This document shows, in pieces, positions 2,743-13,593 of a stretch of 14,964 nt of DNA (positions are counted from its first letter, which is position 1; the number at the start of each line of letters is the position of its first letter). The notes beneath the pieces were generated by a model. The model made no database searches, had not been told where the DNA came from, and saw only the letters and a list, made by a program, of their open reading frames with translations. A program made the position numbers and the translations under genes. Source of the DNA: Deltaproteobacteria bacterium RIFOXYA12_FULL_61_11 (GTDB lineage Bacteria; Bdellovibrionota_F; JAHFAK01; YA12-FULL-61-11); contig MGSU01000069.1 of NCBI GenBank assembly GCA_001799195.1, positions 1-14,964 on the forward strand. The letters are read 5' to 3'.

Positions 2743-2774
2743 CTCCGGATCGGGGGACTCGCGCCCGACCGGAG
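2743..2774 (+). terminator. Strong stem-loop after the lipoprotein gene
   Basis: CTCCGG-A-TCGGG pairs with CCCGA-CCGGAG around a nine-base loop, giving 11 base pairs with one bulged A. It lies 15 bases after the stop at 2728. No T-run follows on the plus strand, so it may protect RNA ends or help factor-dependent termination rather than act as a classic intrinsic terminator. Confidence 0.4.
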
Positions 2775-2780
2775 TGGGTG

Positions 2781-2809
2781 TTGCATCGGGTCGACCGGTC
2801 GACTACCAT
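2781..2809 (+). promoter_or_regulatory. Candidate promoter of the propeller lipoprotein gene, with a perfect palindrome in its spacer
   Basis: TTGCAT and TACCAT (each four of six) are spaced by exactly 17 bases. The 14 bases next to the -10 box (2790-2803) form the perfect palindrome GTCGACCGGTCGAC. A repressor or MerR-type activator bound there would control this promoter. The predicted start near 2816 leaves a leader of about 42 bases before the GTG at 2858. Confidence 0.4.
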
Positions 2810-2857
2810 GGGGAGGAGCATCCTTGCTCGGTGGCTGGGTTCCATGAGGGTTGTAGT

Positions 2858-4669
2858 GTGGTCCGTTTCTTCCTCTTGTTGAGCGTTCTCAACCTCCTCG
2901 GTTGTGGCACTCCCTCGCAGAACGTCGCGGGTGGAGGGCTCGACGAGGACGATAGTCTTCTCCCCGGCGGGAGGGACAACGAGGTCAAGGTCGGGGGCTT
3001 CGATGACGAACTCGATCTCAGCCTGGACCAACTCCCGGGAAAGGATCCGGAACAGCCTACCTTGCAACCCGTGAGCCCCGATCCGACCAAACCTCCCGTG
3101 CTCGACCCTCCTCCTCTCGATCCGAGCAGCGACCCGGGCGATCCCCCGGATCCCAGCACGGACGGGTCAGACCCGGACGATCCGAGCAGCGACCCGGGCG
3201 ATCCCCCGGATCCCAGCACTGATGGGCCGGACCCGGGCGATCCGAGCAGTGATCCCGGAGACGTCAGCGACGATGTCCCGCCCCCGACCCATGACCGAGC
3301 CTTCTCGGCACTATGGCATCGCACCATCGACCAGGGGAAACCACTCGGCACGCTCGAGGTCCTGGTCGGGACGATCCTCCACACGTACGACTATGCCACA
3401 GCAAGTTGGCTCGCGCCGGTCGATCTCCTGGCTCCGGGACAGTGGGCCCAACTCAACGGCCCATTCGAGAACGAGGCCCTCCCCATCGATGCGGCCTATC
3501 TCCTGAACACGCGGCAACCACCCGTGCTCGAAGTGATCTCCTGGCACACCAGGTTCCGTTTCTTCCTCCTCGCAACACCGCGTCAGTGGAGAGAACCTTA
3601 CGACCTCACCTCCGAGGATTCCCTCTGGACAAAACCGCGCGGCCCCTTCGCCGAAGGTGCGTGTCCCCGCGTCGATGCGTCTTGGAACCGTGCTGACGGT
3701 ACAATCAACCACCAGCTCGTCCTGTGCGATACGGTGCTCTACCGCTACGACTACACCGCCTCGACCTGGTTGACCCCGATCGATTGGTCCATCTGGGCGG
3801 CCGGTGAGTACGCACCATCCAGTTCTGGGACAGCACCTCTCGAGTATGCCTGGCATCACCATACGACTGCCGAGGATCTTACCTATGTCCTGGCCGGGAA
3901 TCGCCTGTATCGCCTACACCATCCCACCTCGACCTGGCTTCCCCCACTTTCCACCGATACCGGGAGCTGGGCCGATACGGGTGCTCCTTATGAAACCGCC
4001 GCTACACCTCTCGATGCGGTTTGGGCTGAGGCGACCGGAACGGTGAGGGCCTTGCGCGGCTCCGTGTTGCACGTCCTTAATACCGATGGGACGTGGGAGG
4101 CGAGCGAAGACCTGTCCGCCGGAGCGTGGCACGATCCTCGGGCCCCCTTCGAGAGCACTCTCGAGCCGGTTGATGCCGCCGCCCGCTGCGCAGGAGACAG
4201 CGGGGACCAGCTCTGGGTCCTGAGAGGGACGACGTTGTACCGCAGAGAACTCCCGACCGGAACCTGGGCTACTGTTGAGAATCTGAGCACAGGTTCCTGG
4301 GCCGAGACCAATGCCCCCTTTGCCGGTACTGCCGACCCGATCGACGCCCTGTGGTGCGATGCCGGAGGTCAGTCAGGAGCTATCGGCGTGCTTCGCGGTA
4401 CGGTCTTTTTCTCCAAACCCTCGGTCGCAGTCGCCTGGACACCGCCCGTTCAGGTGACAAGTACCTGGTTCGCCGAACAGGGTGGGCCTTTCGATCTCGT
4501 CCTGACCGCGGTAGAGGCAGGGTGGAGACAAGAAGGACCGGGAGGACCAGTCCTGACCTTCTTGCGTTCGGGTATGCTCTATACCTTCGATGAAACGACC
4601 GCCGCCTGGATGGCCCCCCAGAACGTCGAAGTGCCGTTCTTTGCCTCTCCTTCTGCCCCGCTGCGTTGA
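2858..4669 (+). CDS. Large lipoprotein: acidic Asp/Pro repeat linker plus about eight propeller-like repeats
   Basis: The product is 603 aa if translation starts at the GTG at 2858. That start has GAGGG seven bases upstream and puts a lipoprotein signal directly at the N-terminus (hydrophobic FFLLLSVLNLLGC, lipobox LLGC, Cys16). The open frame reaches back to 2774, but the extra residues are not signal-like. Residues about 20-145 are low-complexity and rich in Asp, Pro, Ser and Gly, including a 20-residue tandem unit starting DPSSDPGDPPDPSTDG. Residues about 146-603 hold some eight units of 55-60 residues. Each has a 'PIDAxW' strand, a 'VLRGxxLYRYD' strand, a 'TW' and an 'LSxGxWxxxxAPFE' turn. 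This periodicity suggests a beta-propeller, with hemopexin-like repeats the nearest pattern I recognise. It is probably an outer-surface protein on an extended acidic stalk; partner or ligand is unknown. Confidence 0.85.
   Translation: MVRFFLLLSVLNLLGCGTPSQNVAGGGLDEDDSLLPGGRDNEVKVGGFDDELDLSLDQLPGKDPEQPTLQPVSPDPTKPPVLDPPPLDPSSDPGDPPDPSTDGSDPDDPSSDPGDPPDPSTDGPDPGDPSSDPGDVSDDVPPPTHDRAFSALWHRTIDQGKPLGTLEVLVGTILHTYDYATASWLAPVDLLAPGQWAQLNGPFENEALPIDAAYLLNTRQPPVLEVISWHTRFRFFLLATPRQWREPYDLTSEDSLWTKPRGPFAEGACPRVDASWNRADGTINHQLVLCDTVLYRYDYTASTWLTPIDWSIWAAGEYAPSSSGTAPLEYAWHHHTTAEDLTYVLAGNRLYRLHHPTSTWLPPLSTDTGSWADTGAPYETAATPLDAVWAEATGTVRALRGSVLHVLNTDGTWEASEDLSAGAWHDPRAPFESTLEPVDAAARCAGDSGDQLWVLRGTTLYRRELPTGTWATVENLSTGSWAETNAPFAGTADPIDALWCDAGGQSGAIGVLRGTVFFSKPSVAVAWTPPVQVTSTWFAEQGGPFDLVLTAVEAGWRQEGPGGPVLTFLRSGMLYTFDETTAAWMAPQNVEVPFFASPSAPLR
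3121..3260 (+). repeat. 60-bp in-frame tandem repeat (two full copies plus a partial third)
   Basis: Positions 3121-3180 and 3181-3240 differ at only five of 60 bases. A third copy begins at 3241 and decays after about 20 bases. The unit encodes 20 residues, so copy-number changes keep the reading frame and would lengthen or shorten the lipoprotein stalk. Confidence 0.95.
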
Positions 4670-10299: not shown

Positions 10300-10343
10300 G
10301 CCGAGGTGCGGGATTGTTGCATGAGATCAGTCATGGGGGGACG

Positions 10344-10360
10344 AGGGGTCCTGTCGCCTC
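10344..10360 (+). repeat. 17-bp dispersed repeat, copy 1
   Basis: AGGGGTCCTGTCGCCTC occurs here and again, identically, at 12504-12520 in the same orientation. The two copies lie in the gene-free stretches on either side of the glycosyltransferase gene. This suggests a dispersed intergenic element or the ends of a lost insertion. Confidence 0.8.
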
Positions 10361-10366
10361 ACACAA

Positions 10367-10522
10367 CGACGCCGCTGCATCCTGCGCGTCGCTTGCAGGT
10401 CCGCATCCATGCGGCCACCCCCACCATGCTCATTCTTGCGCCCAATGGTGCTGCATCCTGCGCACCACCTGGAGGTGTGCTTCCTTGCACCCACCGTGGC
10501 GGGGGACCCCCGTCGGCGCCAC
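10367..10522. repeat. Array of small hairpins with shared loop sequence
   Basis: The gene-free stretch 10241-10582 contains a run of short inverted repeats. Hairpin 1 is CGACGC/GCGTCG (10367-10372 with 10386-10391). Hairpin 2 is CCGCAT/ATGCGG (10401-10406 with 10409-10414). Hairpin 3 is TGGTGC/GCACCA (10446-10451 with 10462-10467). Hairpin 4 is GTGC/GCAC (10477-10480 with 10487-10490). Hairpin 5 is GTGGCG/CGCCAC (10496-10501 with 10517-10522). Hairpins 1 and 3 share the loop CTGCATCCTGC although their stems differ base for base. Hairpins 2 and 4 have related ATCCAT and TTCCTT loops. It codes for nothing evident. It may be a structured RNA element or a recombination or protein-binding array. 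Confidence 0.7.
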
Positions 10523-10536
10523 CCCGATGAGGTTAC

Positions 10537-10567
10537 AAAAATGTTCAGCGATCCCCCCAAGACTGAA
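10537..10567 (-). terminator. Candidate intrinsic terminator of the glycosyltransferase gene
   Basis: On the minus strand, TTCAG pairs with CTGAA around a 14-base loop, followed after one base by ATTTTT. It begins about 15 bases after the TAA at 10583. The stem is short, so termination may be partial. Confidence 0.4.
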
Positions 10568-10582
10568 TGGTTACGGATTGTT

Positions 10583-12337
10583 TTACGGAGAGGGAAGAGG
10601 TGGGGGGCTGAACTCGCGGATATCATCTGGGGCCCGTCTCCTGACGAATACGGAAATCGTATGGCCGTCCGGAGTACGGTACTGGGAATAAAAGACAAAT
10701 AAGTCATTGAAATGGAGCAAAAAGCTTTCGAGGTTGGGATTAGGGAAAAGGTAGTCCCAGCTCCATGGATAGAGATACCCCCGTAGGTGGGTCAGGATCG
10801 CGGACGAGTCCAGAACGGAGAGTTCGAGTTCCTGCAGATGGACGAGCACGAATTCCGCGTGACTCACCAGCTCATTCACCTTGTGAGTGTTGAAGAAGAG
10901 ATGATCGACCTCGATGTCGGCATCGGCAAGCCGGAGCCAATAGTCGATGTAAGCGTCGAGGGGAGGAGGGTGAGCCGACTGGTCCATGCCGACGAGGAGC
11001 ACCTTTACCTTGGGAGAAGACCCAGCGAGGCGCCGGAGCTCCTGCGCAAGGGGGGTTCTCCACCGATGTGTGTCGGGTTGAGGGGGGCTCATGTATATGT
11101 TGGAGTACTGATAGGTGCGACGGCCATGTAGGTAGTACAGGTAGCTGTCGGGATGCCAACTCAGGAAAAAATAGTGCGCGAAGCCGAAGAGGATGAGCAG
11201 GGCGAGCACCGTCCGGCCACTCCACCCCTTACCGAGCGGTGCTCGGAGACCCAAGGCCAGGACGATACCCACGAGGGGCGCAAGGGGTAGGATGTAGCGG
11301 GCTTGTTTGAGCACGAGAACGATGGAGAACAGAGCTAAGTTTCCCAGAATGGTGATGAAAAGGGTGGAAAGATAGGGCACCGTGCGTCGCCGGAGGAACC
11401 ACAGAGAGGGGAGGAGGGCGAGGGCGTATACGGGACCTAAGCCATTGTGCCACCACAAGAAGAACAGGTACCAACTCATGGACAGGGGGGAGTACGGAGC
11501 GTCGGTCTTGGCCTGGGAGAAGAAGAGGTGCTCGGTTGATCCCACGTGTTCGCGGAACTGCTGAGCAATATCCGGCAGCGCCCTGAGCCACCAAGGAGCG
11601 GCGAGTATGAAGGCTGCCCCGAGGAAGAGGAGTATGTTGAGCCTGGGGGGAGCCCGAAACCACCTACCCGTCGTACGCGAGCCCAGTCCTCGAGCCAACT
11701 CGACCAGGATGATCGGGGTGACGAAGAAGAGGATCTGCCCTTTGCAGTGCATGCCCAACCCGAGCGCCAAGCCCGCGATGAAACTCCAACCCCGTTGCGA
11801 GAAGTGGTCGGACTTGATGAGACAGCACCAGGTTGCCAGGGCCATGGCGGTCATGGGGAAGTCGAGAGCATAGTGCCGAGAGGCCATGAAGATCAGCGGG
11901 GTCGTCGAGACGAAGAAGGCGGCGAGCACGCCGGTGGCGCGGTCTTGCAATTTCGCGGCGAGGCTGTAGCACGAGAGGATGAGGATGACGAAATACAACA
12001 ACATGGGGAGGCGGATCGCAAAATGCGAGCGGTGCAGCTCCAAGAAGAGGGCGCTGAGCCAATACGGCATTTGCGGCCACATGGTGTTCAGGCTGGCGCT
12101 GGGCGTGCTAAAAGCGTTGTACCAGAAGCGGAGCCTGTCGAGCGGTGCTTGTCCGGGGGTATTCCAGTTGTCGGCCAAGAGGTCGTGGAACCGCAGCGCA
12201 TTGGCAATATGGAGGGTGCTGTCGATACCCCGGATGGAGTAGTCTTCCCACCACCACACGCAAGTGGCGAGCATACTGCCTCCGATCAGGAGCAGCAGCA
12301 GGGTGCGGGCGGGAAAGGAGAAGGTCCGAGGTCGCAT
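10583..12337 (-). CDS. GT39/ArnT-like membrane glycosyltransferase (GT-C fold)
   Basis: The product is 584 aa from the ATG at 12337. The frame is open to a TTG at 12472, but the extra residues are Arg/Pro-rich and precede the first membrane helix, so the ATG is preferred. Ten or more hydrophobic helices span about 11-395, consistent with GT-C enzymes that use polyprenyl-phosphate sugars outside the inner membrane. After helix 1 the first loop has EDYSIRGIDSTLHIA, where Asp39 stands where the catalytic acidic residue of PMT/ArnT proteins lies. RHYALDFPMTAMALATW (154-170) and KQARYILPLAPLVG (344-357) are further family-like signatures. Residues about 396-584 form a soluble C-terminal domain I do not recognise. 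It probably glycosylates a lipid or a protein. Donor and acceptor are unknown. No lipid-A or O-antigen cluster is nearby. Confidence 0.85.
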   Translation of the reverse strand: MRPRTFSFPARTLLLLLIGGSMLATCVWWWEDYSIRGIDSTLHIANALRFHDLLADNWNTPGQAPLDRLRFWYNAFSTPSASLNTMWPQMPYWLSALFLELHRSHFAIRLPMLLYFVILILSCYSLAAKLQDRATGVLAAFFVSTTPLIFMASRHYALDFPMTAMALATWCCLIKSDHFSQRGWSFIAGLALGLGMHCKGQILFFVTPIILVELARGLGSRTTGRWFRAPPRLNILLFLGAAFILAAPWWLRALPDIAQQFREHVGSTEHLFFSQAKTDAPYSPLSMSWYLFFLWWHNGLGPVYALALLPSLWFLRRRTVPYLSTLFITILGNLALFSIVLVLKQARYILPLAPLVGIVLALGLRAPLGKGWSGRTVLALLILFGFAHYFFLSWHPDSYLYYLHGRRTYQYSNIYMSPPQPDTHRWRTPLAQELRRLAGSSPKVKVLLVGMDQSAHPPPLDAYIDYWLRLADADIEVDHLFFNTHKVNELVSHAEFVLVHLQELELSVLDSSAILTHLRGYLYPWSWDYLFPNPNLESFLLHFNDLFVFYSQYRTPDGHTISVFVRRRAPDDIREFSPPPLPSP

Positions 12338-12456
12338 CAGGCCCACCGGTTGGAGTTGAGGACCTAGCGCTGCACCGGGACGACGCTTTTCAGGTGTACG
12401 TACTCTTCCCGGTAAGCGCGACAAGCAGGACAGCCTCGCTATAGAACGTCCGCGGG

Positions 12457-12485
12457 AGGAATACAACGGCAAGGCGTGTATTCCT
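12457..12485. repeat. Perfect 9-bp inverted repeat upstream of the glycosyltransferase
   Basis: AGGAATACA and TGTATTCCT are perfect inverted copies separated by 11 bases. The dyad lies 120 bases upstream of the glycosyltransferase ATG, so it could be an operator for that gene or a hairpin in its leader. Confidence 0.5.
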
Positions 12486-12503
12486 TCAGTCTTGGGTGGG
12501 GCA

Positions 12504-12556
12504 AGGGGTCCTGTCGCCTCTCACCCTGTCCCTCGCCAAAAATGAATCTGGGGACA
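12504..12556 (+). repeat. 17-bp dispersed repeat (copy 2) plus REP-like hairpin
   Basis: It begins with AGGGGTCCTGTCGCCTC, identical to 10344-10360. Next, TGTCCC (12527-12532) pairs with GGGACA (12551-12556) across an A-rich spacer that includes AAAAATGAATCTGG. The arrangement recalls the repetitive palindromic elements linked to IS200-like (RAYT) transposases. No transposase is present in the window. The rest of 12338-12716 holds no convincing gene. Confidence 0.5.
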
Positions 12557-13074: not shown

Positions 13075-13103
13075 CTGACAACCAAACCTGACCGTGCTAC
13101 TCT
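13075..13103 (+). promoter_or_regulatory. Promoter of the first hicBA module
   Basis: CTGACA (five of six) and TACTCT are spaced 17 bases apart, and TGC precedes the -10, giving an extended -10. The predicted start near 13110 leaves a leader of about 23 bases before the ATG at 13133. Confidence 0.5.
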
Positions 13104-13132
13104 ACGGTGGTGTTCCGTTTCGGAGACCGGCC

Positions 13133-13375
13133 ATGATATCCGAGTATATTCAAGCATGTCTCAGGCAAGCCAGCTATGAAATCCTGGCTGACGATCACAG
13201 CTTTTACGGAGAGATCCCTTGCTGTACCGGGGTCTATGCCAATGCGGCGACGCTCGAACTCTGCCGAGAAGAACTGCGCGACGTTCTCGAGGGCTGGCTT
13301 CTCCTTCGCCTGACCCAAGGGCTGGCATTACCCGTCGTCGACGGGGTCAACCTTGTTGCCCCGAAGGTCGCATGA
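13133..13375 (+). CDS. hicB: HicB-family antitoxin, module 1
   Basis: The product is 80 aa. The ATG at 13133 has GGAG seven bases upstream; the frame is open further upstream, but those residues lack family similarity. The core, EYIQACLRQASYEILADDHS followed by FYGEIPCCTGVYANAATLEL and CREELRDVLEGWLLLRLTQG, matches the HicB fold in which a partial dsRBD-like domain covers the HicA active site. It ends LPVVDGV, like a common short HicB subgroup with no C-terminal DNA-binding domain. Autoregulation would then need another factor. Its TGA overlaps the ATG of the toxin gene by three bases (ATGA), so the pair is translationally coupled. Confidence 0.88.
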   Translation: MISEYIQACLRQASYEILADDHSFYGEIPCCTGVYANAATLELCREELRDVLEGWLLLRLTQGLALPVVDGVNLVAPKVA

Positions 13376-13593
13376 CCCCCACCGGCAGAACCGTCAAGCG
13401 CCGCAACCTGATCTCAGCTCTTCGCCGAGCCGGTTTCCTCGGTCCGTTTACAGGCGGCAGGTATCAGTTCATGCTCCGTGGCGCAACTACTCTCGTTGTT
13501 CCCAATCCCCATCATGCCGACATCGGCCATGAACTCTTGCTGAGAATCCTCAAACAAGCGGGCATCAGTTGGTCGGAATGGGAACAACTATAG
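13372..13593 (+). CDS. hicA: HicA-family mRNA interferase, module 1, with the catalytic His replaced by Tyr
   Basis: The product is 73 aa and shows the dsRBD-like HicA pattern: VKRRNLISALRRAGF helix, then TGGRYQFMLRG, then LVVPNPHHADIGHELLLRILKQAGIS. HicA toxins cleave mRNA and carry a conserved His in a 'GG/GS-x-H' turn. Here that place is Tyr31 (codon TAT at 13462-13464), one C-to-T change away from His. The toxin may thus be inactive or weakened. The alternative is that another residue, such as His47 or His48, does the catalysis. Start ATG overlaps the hicB stop. The open frame extends upstream to 13219, but only the part from 13372 resembles HicA. Confidence 0.85.
   Translation: MTPTGRTVKRRNLISALRRAGFLGPFTGGRYQFMLRGATTLVVPNPHHADIGHELLLRILKQAGISWSEWEQL

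Follow-up and report, generated by a model that had tools for sequence, protein, structure and literature searches.

Two copies of a 54-nt double-hairpin repeat inside a target-duplicated MITE next to a PMT_2 gene

The hairpins at positions 10367-10522 of the window (the whole 14,964-nucleotide stretch of DNA analysed here) are two copies of a 54-nt double-hairpin repeat, which occupy fixed positions inside a MITE. The MITE has inserted next to a PMT_2 glycosyltransferase gene with an 8-bp target duplication. Sequence and folding place five hairpins exactly where the original prediction had them. They are not five independent structures; they are the two repeat copies, hereafter units, plus a single hairpin (the fifth, about 10496-10522) that is part of the MITE core. 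The boundaries 10367-10522 hence miss the natural element, which runs from 10319 to 10574. Judging from sequence comparison, the units are probably non-autonomous, REP-like elements that depend on Y1/HUH (RAYT-like) transposases encoded by the same genome, that is, a variant REP/RAYT system mobilised as folded single-stranded DNA. The features are listed below, with a slash at the point of unit insertion and bulges in round brackets. CM denotes covariance model.

10311-10318, no strand: left copy of the target-site duplication, GGATTGTT; perfect match to 10575-10582 at zero offset
10319-10574, plus: MITE copy with both units, 256 bp; from 15-nt inverted ends, dispersal in the genome, boundaries and length classes
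10319-10341, plus: left terminal inverted repeat, family form GTAACCCTTCAGTCTTGGGTGGGG; from genome matches to TTCAGTCTTGGG
10365-10418, plus: unit 1, 54 nt, at MITE site 1; CM R1 match 10365-10419, 79.0 bits; empty site CCTCACAC/CCCCACC
10367-10391, plus: hairpin A of unit 1, CGACGC (CGCT) GCA-TCC-TGC GCGTCG, 4-nt 5' bulge; from sequence, CM alignment and covariation
10399-10414, plus: hairpin B of unit 1, CCGCA TCCA TGCGG, directly after a GCAG tag; from CM alignment and covariation
10442-10495, plus: unit 2, 54 nt, at MITE site 2; CM R1 match 10441-10495, 69.0 bits; empty site CTTGCGC/GTGGCGGG
about 10446-10467, plus: hairpin A of unit 2, TGGTGC (T) GCA-TCC-TGC GCACCA, 1-nt bulge; from sequence and covariation
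10475-10492, plus: hairpin B of unit 2, GTGC..GCAC with a TCCT loop, after a GGAG tag; from CM alignment and covariation
10496-10527, plus: MITE core, GTGGCGGGGG...GGCGCCACCCC arms pairing with CCCCCACC and the left GCC/GGGGT; from RNAalifold of 20 empty copies
10552-10574, minus: right terminal inverted repeat; from inverted-repeat match and MITE boundary comparison
10575-10582, no strand: right copy of the target-site duplication, GGATTGTT; perfect 8 bp, abutting the PMT_2 stop codon at 10583-10585
12478-12533, plus: second MITE of the same family, only the left end kept (terminal inverted repeat and GGGGTCCTGTCGCCTCTCACCC); from match to the MITE family

The carrier has the hallmarks of a MITE. 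It is short, lacks a transposase or other open reading frame, has many copies and is bounded by terminal inverted repeats and a target-site duplication. In the window copy, the terminal inverted repeats are about 22 nt long, the 8-bp duplication is perfect and 15-nt inverted repeats (10327-10341 and 10552-10566) enclose all of the hairpins. The ends have the form GTAACCCTTCAGTCTTGGG. Window positions 10300-10600 match about 40 places in the same genome (4.64 Mb in 342 contigs), the strongest with 85-95% identity over the aligned pieces. Allowing up to one mismatch, the terminal motif TTCAGTCTTGGG has 159 genome matches, compared with 8 for a reversed-pattern control, and these are often paired about 122 nt apart. 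We extracted 48 MITE copies from stretches of the genome, a partial census in which 22 of 48 have an 8-bp duplication with no more than one mismatch; when the ends were shuffled, the mean was 0.66 and the maximum 4. RNAalifold analysis of 20 empty copies revealed a perfectly linked pair in the MITE core (alignment columns 42 and 98), which is G-C in 12 copies and A-T in 8. IS66 elements have GTAA ends and make an 8-bp duplication. The MITE resembles this family in both respects, its terminal inverted repeats also starting GTAA. No autonomous partner was found in the genome; the only IS66 transposase over the Pfam cut-off (C91) sits at a contig end, where no matching terminal repeat was found.

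The array is intergenic and lies between two co-directional genes, as originally described; the open reading frames put both on the minus strand. One of the two, assigned by Pfam, is the PMT_2 gene (10583-12472, minus strand, stop codon 10583-10585). The second MITE of the window is near the 5' end of this gene, which hence has MITE sequence at both ends. Elsewhere in the genome, at L046:1-345, two MITEs of different subfamilies are inserted next to each other, and the second has an 8-bp duplication of its own, CGGGAAGG. Further along the window, overlapping genes at 13094-13593 match UPF0150-like (HicB-like) and HicA toxin families and are likely to be a HicAB toxin-antitoxin pair. At 2774-4669 is a 631-aa protein with a low-complexity DPSSDPGDPPDPSTDG stretch, repeated W-containing segments and no Pfam match.

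Each unit consists of hairpin A, with its 5' bulge and a cap that is mostly GCATCCTGC, then a G(G/T/C)AG tag, then hairpin B. The two window copies form a direct repeat of 46 nt (76% identity, starts 76-77 nt apart) that spans both hairpins. The tag lies directly 5' of hairpin B in 61 of 69 distinct units (GGAG in 52, GTAG in 7 and GCAG in 2) and the hairpin B loop is TCCN in nearly all. According to the original claim, the CGACGC and TGGTGC hairpins, the first and third of the array, have no stem pair in common. This is wrong: in register, three of the six pairs are changed (C-G to T-A, A-T to G-C and C-G to T-A, reading from hairpin 1 to hairpin 3) and three are the same. The claim of a shared loop is right in that both contain the string CTGCATCCTGC and wrong in that the first C is part of the stem in the second of these hairpins. 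What was taken for a conserved loop is a cap that itself contains a 3-bp stem, GCA-TCC-TGC; the asymmetric 5' bulge below it is 4 nt long in the CGACGC hairpin and 1 nt long in the TGGTGC hairpin.

Selection on structure, proposed from those two hairpins, holds well beyond them. A covariance model of 55 positions gave 97 unit matches in the genome at E≤1, most with E<1e-4, so the further copies that the original check called for do exist. Across the 69 distinct units, 79 cells carry two-sided changes, compared with 24.2 ± 3.9 after shuffling, and none of 500 shuffles reached 79. Paired cells made up 84.8% of the total, against 76.2% when shuffled (0 of 500 shuffles reached the observed value); the alignment was fitted to the covariance model, which biases this percentage upward, and the two-sided changes are many nonetheless. 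One pair of hairpin B serves as an example: CG in 28 units, GC in 17, UA in 17 and AU in 2. Sliding the partner columns reduced the covariation score from 0.214 to 0.051 or less. In the window, the 156 nt folded as single-stranded DNA scored better than 200 of 200 dinucleotide shuffles (z -3.0). These hairpins are genuine, and their structure is under constraint.

Comparison of MITE copies exposes the ends of the unit. Empty MITEs measure about 146-152 bp; alongside them are copies with one or two units, in which each unit adds 53-54 nt. At site 1, which is empty in L016, L046, L120 and others, the internal distance is 23 nt when empty and 76 or 77 nt when filled; at site 2 it is 3 nt and 57 nt respectively. 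No duplication of flanking bases was seen at unit insertion sites. The sequence 5' of these sites is weakly fixed, with only a C constant. The unit 1 type keeps to site 1 and the unit 2 type to site 2. A third site, GGCGCC/ACCCC, holds another unit type in L024 and L043. Units also occur inside the hairpin A loop of another unit, after CCTGC (L178, L179, L180, L181, L170 and L102). In L179 the internal distance of 130 is 77+53, a second unit being nested inside the first, and the other five are similar. Tandem units with a 54-nt period occur in L169 and L097, partly just past the apparent stop of another gene, and a few other open frames of putative genes contain units (L177, L172 and L099). 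The L169 arrays (871-978, 1687-1849 and 3442-3546; contig C287) keep an exact 54-nt period; some lie just past the apparent stop of a gene with a repetitive 3' end, and the contig is rich in other short repeats.

The presence of units is independent of the phylogeny and backbone of the MITE. We built a tree from 47 MITE cores with the units cut out. On this tree, presence of unit 1 required 18 changes (shuffled mean 15.5) and all four unit states required 22 (shuffled 21.5); the starred branches alone force at least six changes for the unit-1 group. Markers flanking both sites, G or A on the left and C or T on the right, are linked in 47 of 47 copies and form the compensating G-C/A-T pair of the MITE core. 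Each marker class contains all four unit states. Mean divergence is 7% for unit 1 and 25% for the MITE backbones, and the correlation between unit and backbone is weak (Mantel r 0.20, p 0.04). A 51-nt core of unit 1 is identical in the window, L010, L022 and L023, the backbones of which are unlike. Either the units precisely leave and enter, or very short conversion tracts copy them.

Transposases that might act on the units are encoded in the same genome, in line with the co-occurrence that the original check set out to look for. Twelve Y1 (IS200-like/RAYT) matches to PF01797 exceed the Pfam cut-off, and the translations show NHxH and YLxxN motifs, hence an HUH motif and a catalytic tyrosine. 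A reverse transcriptase, the other enzyme named in the original prediction, was not seen in the window. Several RAYT genes or remnants carry a unit in their 3' end (L041, L096, L173, L175, L176 and others). These units are in frame and at the same codon position in three RAYT groups, with ends at KKD- or QKD-stop; one such gene or remnant reads ...SDAAASCASPGGRHPCRHPDASKKD-stop. RAYT genes without a unit (L105, L106, L113 and L114) end ...SSDTSKKD-stop or ...SDAA(A/T)SKKD-stop. The unit-carrying protein L096:944-1795 matches PF01797 at 9.7e-10. Against NF047646 (REP_Tyr_transpos) it scored 30.4 bits, with an E-value of 3e-7 that is better than for IS200; the score is below the cut-off of 80, which marks the enzyme as a divergent relative. 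Searching PDB sequences with the RAYT protein turned up no relative. The outer ends of the RAYT genes are not built of these units. At L105, L106, L107 and L108, a conserved left end (CCCAGGTCGGACTTCGAAGC...CGCCGAC) and right end (...ACCGAGTCCGGC) lie outside the RAYT genes. This suggests that RAYT genes may themselves be mobile in this genome, unlike most domesticated RAYTs.

On our reading, the hairpins, folded in single-stranded (lagging-strand) DNA, would be recognised together with the tag by a RAYT-like enzyme. The transposase would cut the unit out precisely and paste it elsewhere without target duplication. Frequent targets would be other folded repeats, namely MITE core junctions, the hairpin A loop of another unit and the transposase gene 3' end. 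The MITE would move by an unrelated DDE-type transposition that duplicates its target, with the units as passengers. Pairing would then be kept by selection because the folded strand is the recognition target, with stem sequence free to drift. For this reading we count the copy number, covariation, 53-54-nt steps without duplication, nesting, units at RAYT 3' ends, the tag and independence from the MITE. Against it we count that the units are not in inverted pairs, that GGAG is the main tag, the sub-cut-off NF047646 score, the RAYT outer ends and the weak 5' flank.

Mobilisation of the units is what we infer from these comparisons, and short-tract gene conversion is its rival. Each unit type may have inserted once in an ancestral MITE, with scatter since then by gene conversion or recombination between copies, or by loss. 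The restriction of each unit type to one site fits inheritance and gene conversion as well as it fits re-insertion. The residual unit/backbone correlation also speaks for conversion, as do L010, which has both its unit and the CTCACAC flank in common with another subfamily, and the unit1/unit2 recombinant held by L099. In that recombinant MITE (L099:1614-1760), the 5' half of unit 1 runs directly into the 3' half of unit 2, with the junction at the GCATCCTGC cap that both share. However, the flank markers stay linked in every copy though every unit state occurs with both marker pairs, conversion tracts would need to end within about 9 nt of site 1, and L022 has a foreign unit with its own flanks on both sides. 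We regard gene conversion as the less likely course, though a serious one. Separately, a chimera at L101:1250-1500 has a MITE left end joined via two units to a RAYT gene tail, and looks as if recombination used the shared units.

A structured RNA between the two minus-strand genes (a regulatory element, terminator or mRNA stabiliser for which the array is conserved) is an improbable explanation. It would account for the strong folding, the covariation and the intergenic position between co-directional genes, and REPs elsewhere are thought to be transcribed (PMC3733652). Conversely, the element is dispersed and target-duplicated in unrelated places, its units are present or absent at random, and units also occur inside coding frames and inside each other. 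Rfam 15 had no family above the gathering score in the window; a permissive threshold gave only a weak chance match (E 1.5). Hence, where the original prediction offered an RNA or a single-stranded DNA recognition array of an undescribed family, the recognition structure is the better half and the undescribed RNA family finds no backing. GC-rich intergenic sequence folds readily, which might have yielded hairpins by chance. This is refuted by the 97 covariance-model matches, by a reversed-pattern control (0 matches, compared with 57 real) and by the covariation control (0 of 500). Other known arrays were dropped on anatomy: CRISPR for want of spacers, attC for want of an attC core, and retron and DGR for want of a reverse transcriptase in the window.

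Relatives yielded no copies. Covariance-model searches of one same-class relative and four outside genomes found no unit, and a DNA search of 40 relatives found no copies. A pattern scan of 84,980 species gave 0 exact matches for the RAYT-type unit, with the window's own lineage possibly masked. A loose pattern gave nine matches in the same 84,980 species, with CM E-values of 0.003 or worse. We attribute these nine loci to chance, given the poor E-values and that four of their genomes, searched whole, had no unit. No relative was thus found outside this genome, beside which the lineage had a single further genome of the same class.

The spread of REP sequences is a long-standing open question; RAYTs cut REPs in vitro, but movement in genomes is known only from glimpses in rare reads. 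In this one genome, a target-duplicated MITE provides many pairs of sites with and without a defined 54-nt unit. The mobile unit, its ends, the lack of duplication and independence from the carrier can therefore be read directly, and can be tested with one transposase and one substrate. Filled and empty copies, when compared, document the gain and loss of such repeats with unusual clarity. We suggest, tentatively, that 54-nt double-hairpin single-stranded DNA elements might enter and exit the same sites repeatedly and with precision (MITE junctions, unit loops and, in frame, the coding end of their own transposase) in a homing-like manner, the MITE serving as a reusable landing pad. Such behaviour, if true, is not described for REPs in the REP literature compared.

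The closest known systems are the GTAG REPs with their RAYT/TnpAREP REPtrons (PMC3733652, PMC8266576). REPs are already described as having GTAG tags, stems with compensatory changes, copies inside genes and overlaps with transposase genes (PMC3733652). E. coli TnpAREP depends on the GTAG motif and on an imperfect palindrome with a bulge (PMC8266576), with which the recognition of folded strands proposed here agrees. The units are likewise short palindromes, dispersed at high copy number in one genome and associated with RAYT genes, with a GNAG tetranucleotide just 5' of a hairpin. As in GTAG REPs such as E. coli REP, the imperfect palindromes are bulged, stem changes are compensatory and some copies are intragenic; as in REPtrons, Y1/HUH transposase genes carry the repeat, some with overlap of the gene 3' end. 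Unlike GTAG REPs, each unit has two unlike hairpins in fixed order around the tag, spanning 54 nt, instead of a lone REP or two REPs in inversion. GGAG is the prevailing tag, with exact GTAG in only 7 of 69 units, and units lie within a MITE and within the loops of other units. REPINs (PMC3116915) are also alike in compensatory changes and in that a two-palindrome unit is proposed as the mobile entity of the RAYT; their precise excision has been seen in population reads (Bertels and Rainey 2011, PMC3116915). However, REPINs are inverted REP pairs in one long hairpin, whereas hairpins A and B fold separately, differ in type and keep one fixed, same-sense order. Three departures keep us from claiming strict REP/RAYT membership: the predominance of GGAG as the tag, the lack of the REPIN inversion and a score short of the NCBIfam cut-off.

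Rickettsia palindromic elements (PMC10969869) are also palindromic repeats inserted in frame inside genes, and RPE-4/6 are CGTC REPs (PMC3733652). They differ in size (about 150 bp for the RPEs reviewed) and sequence, and the in-frame copies found here are concentrated in the transposase 3' end. The double-hairpin elements of Allomyces mitochondria (Paquin et al. 2000, cited in PMC2800124) are, by that description only, similar mobile two-hairpin units without target duplication; as cited there, they are mitochondrial and their transposase is unknown. Nothing in the literature compared combines a fixed pair of unlike hairpins around a tag with nesting both in a MITE and within other units and with many pairs of empty and filled sites.
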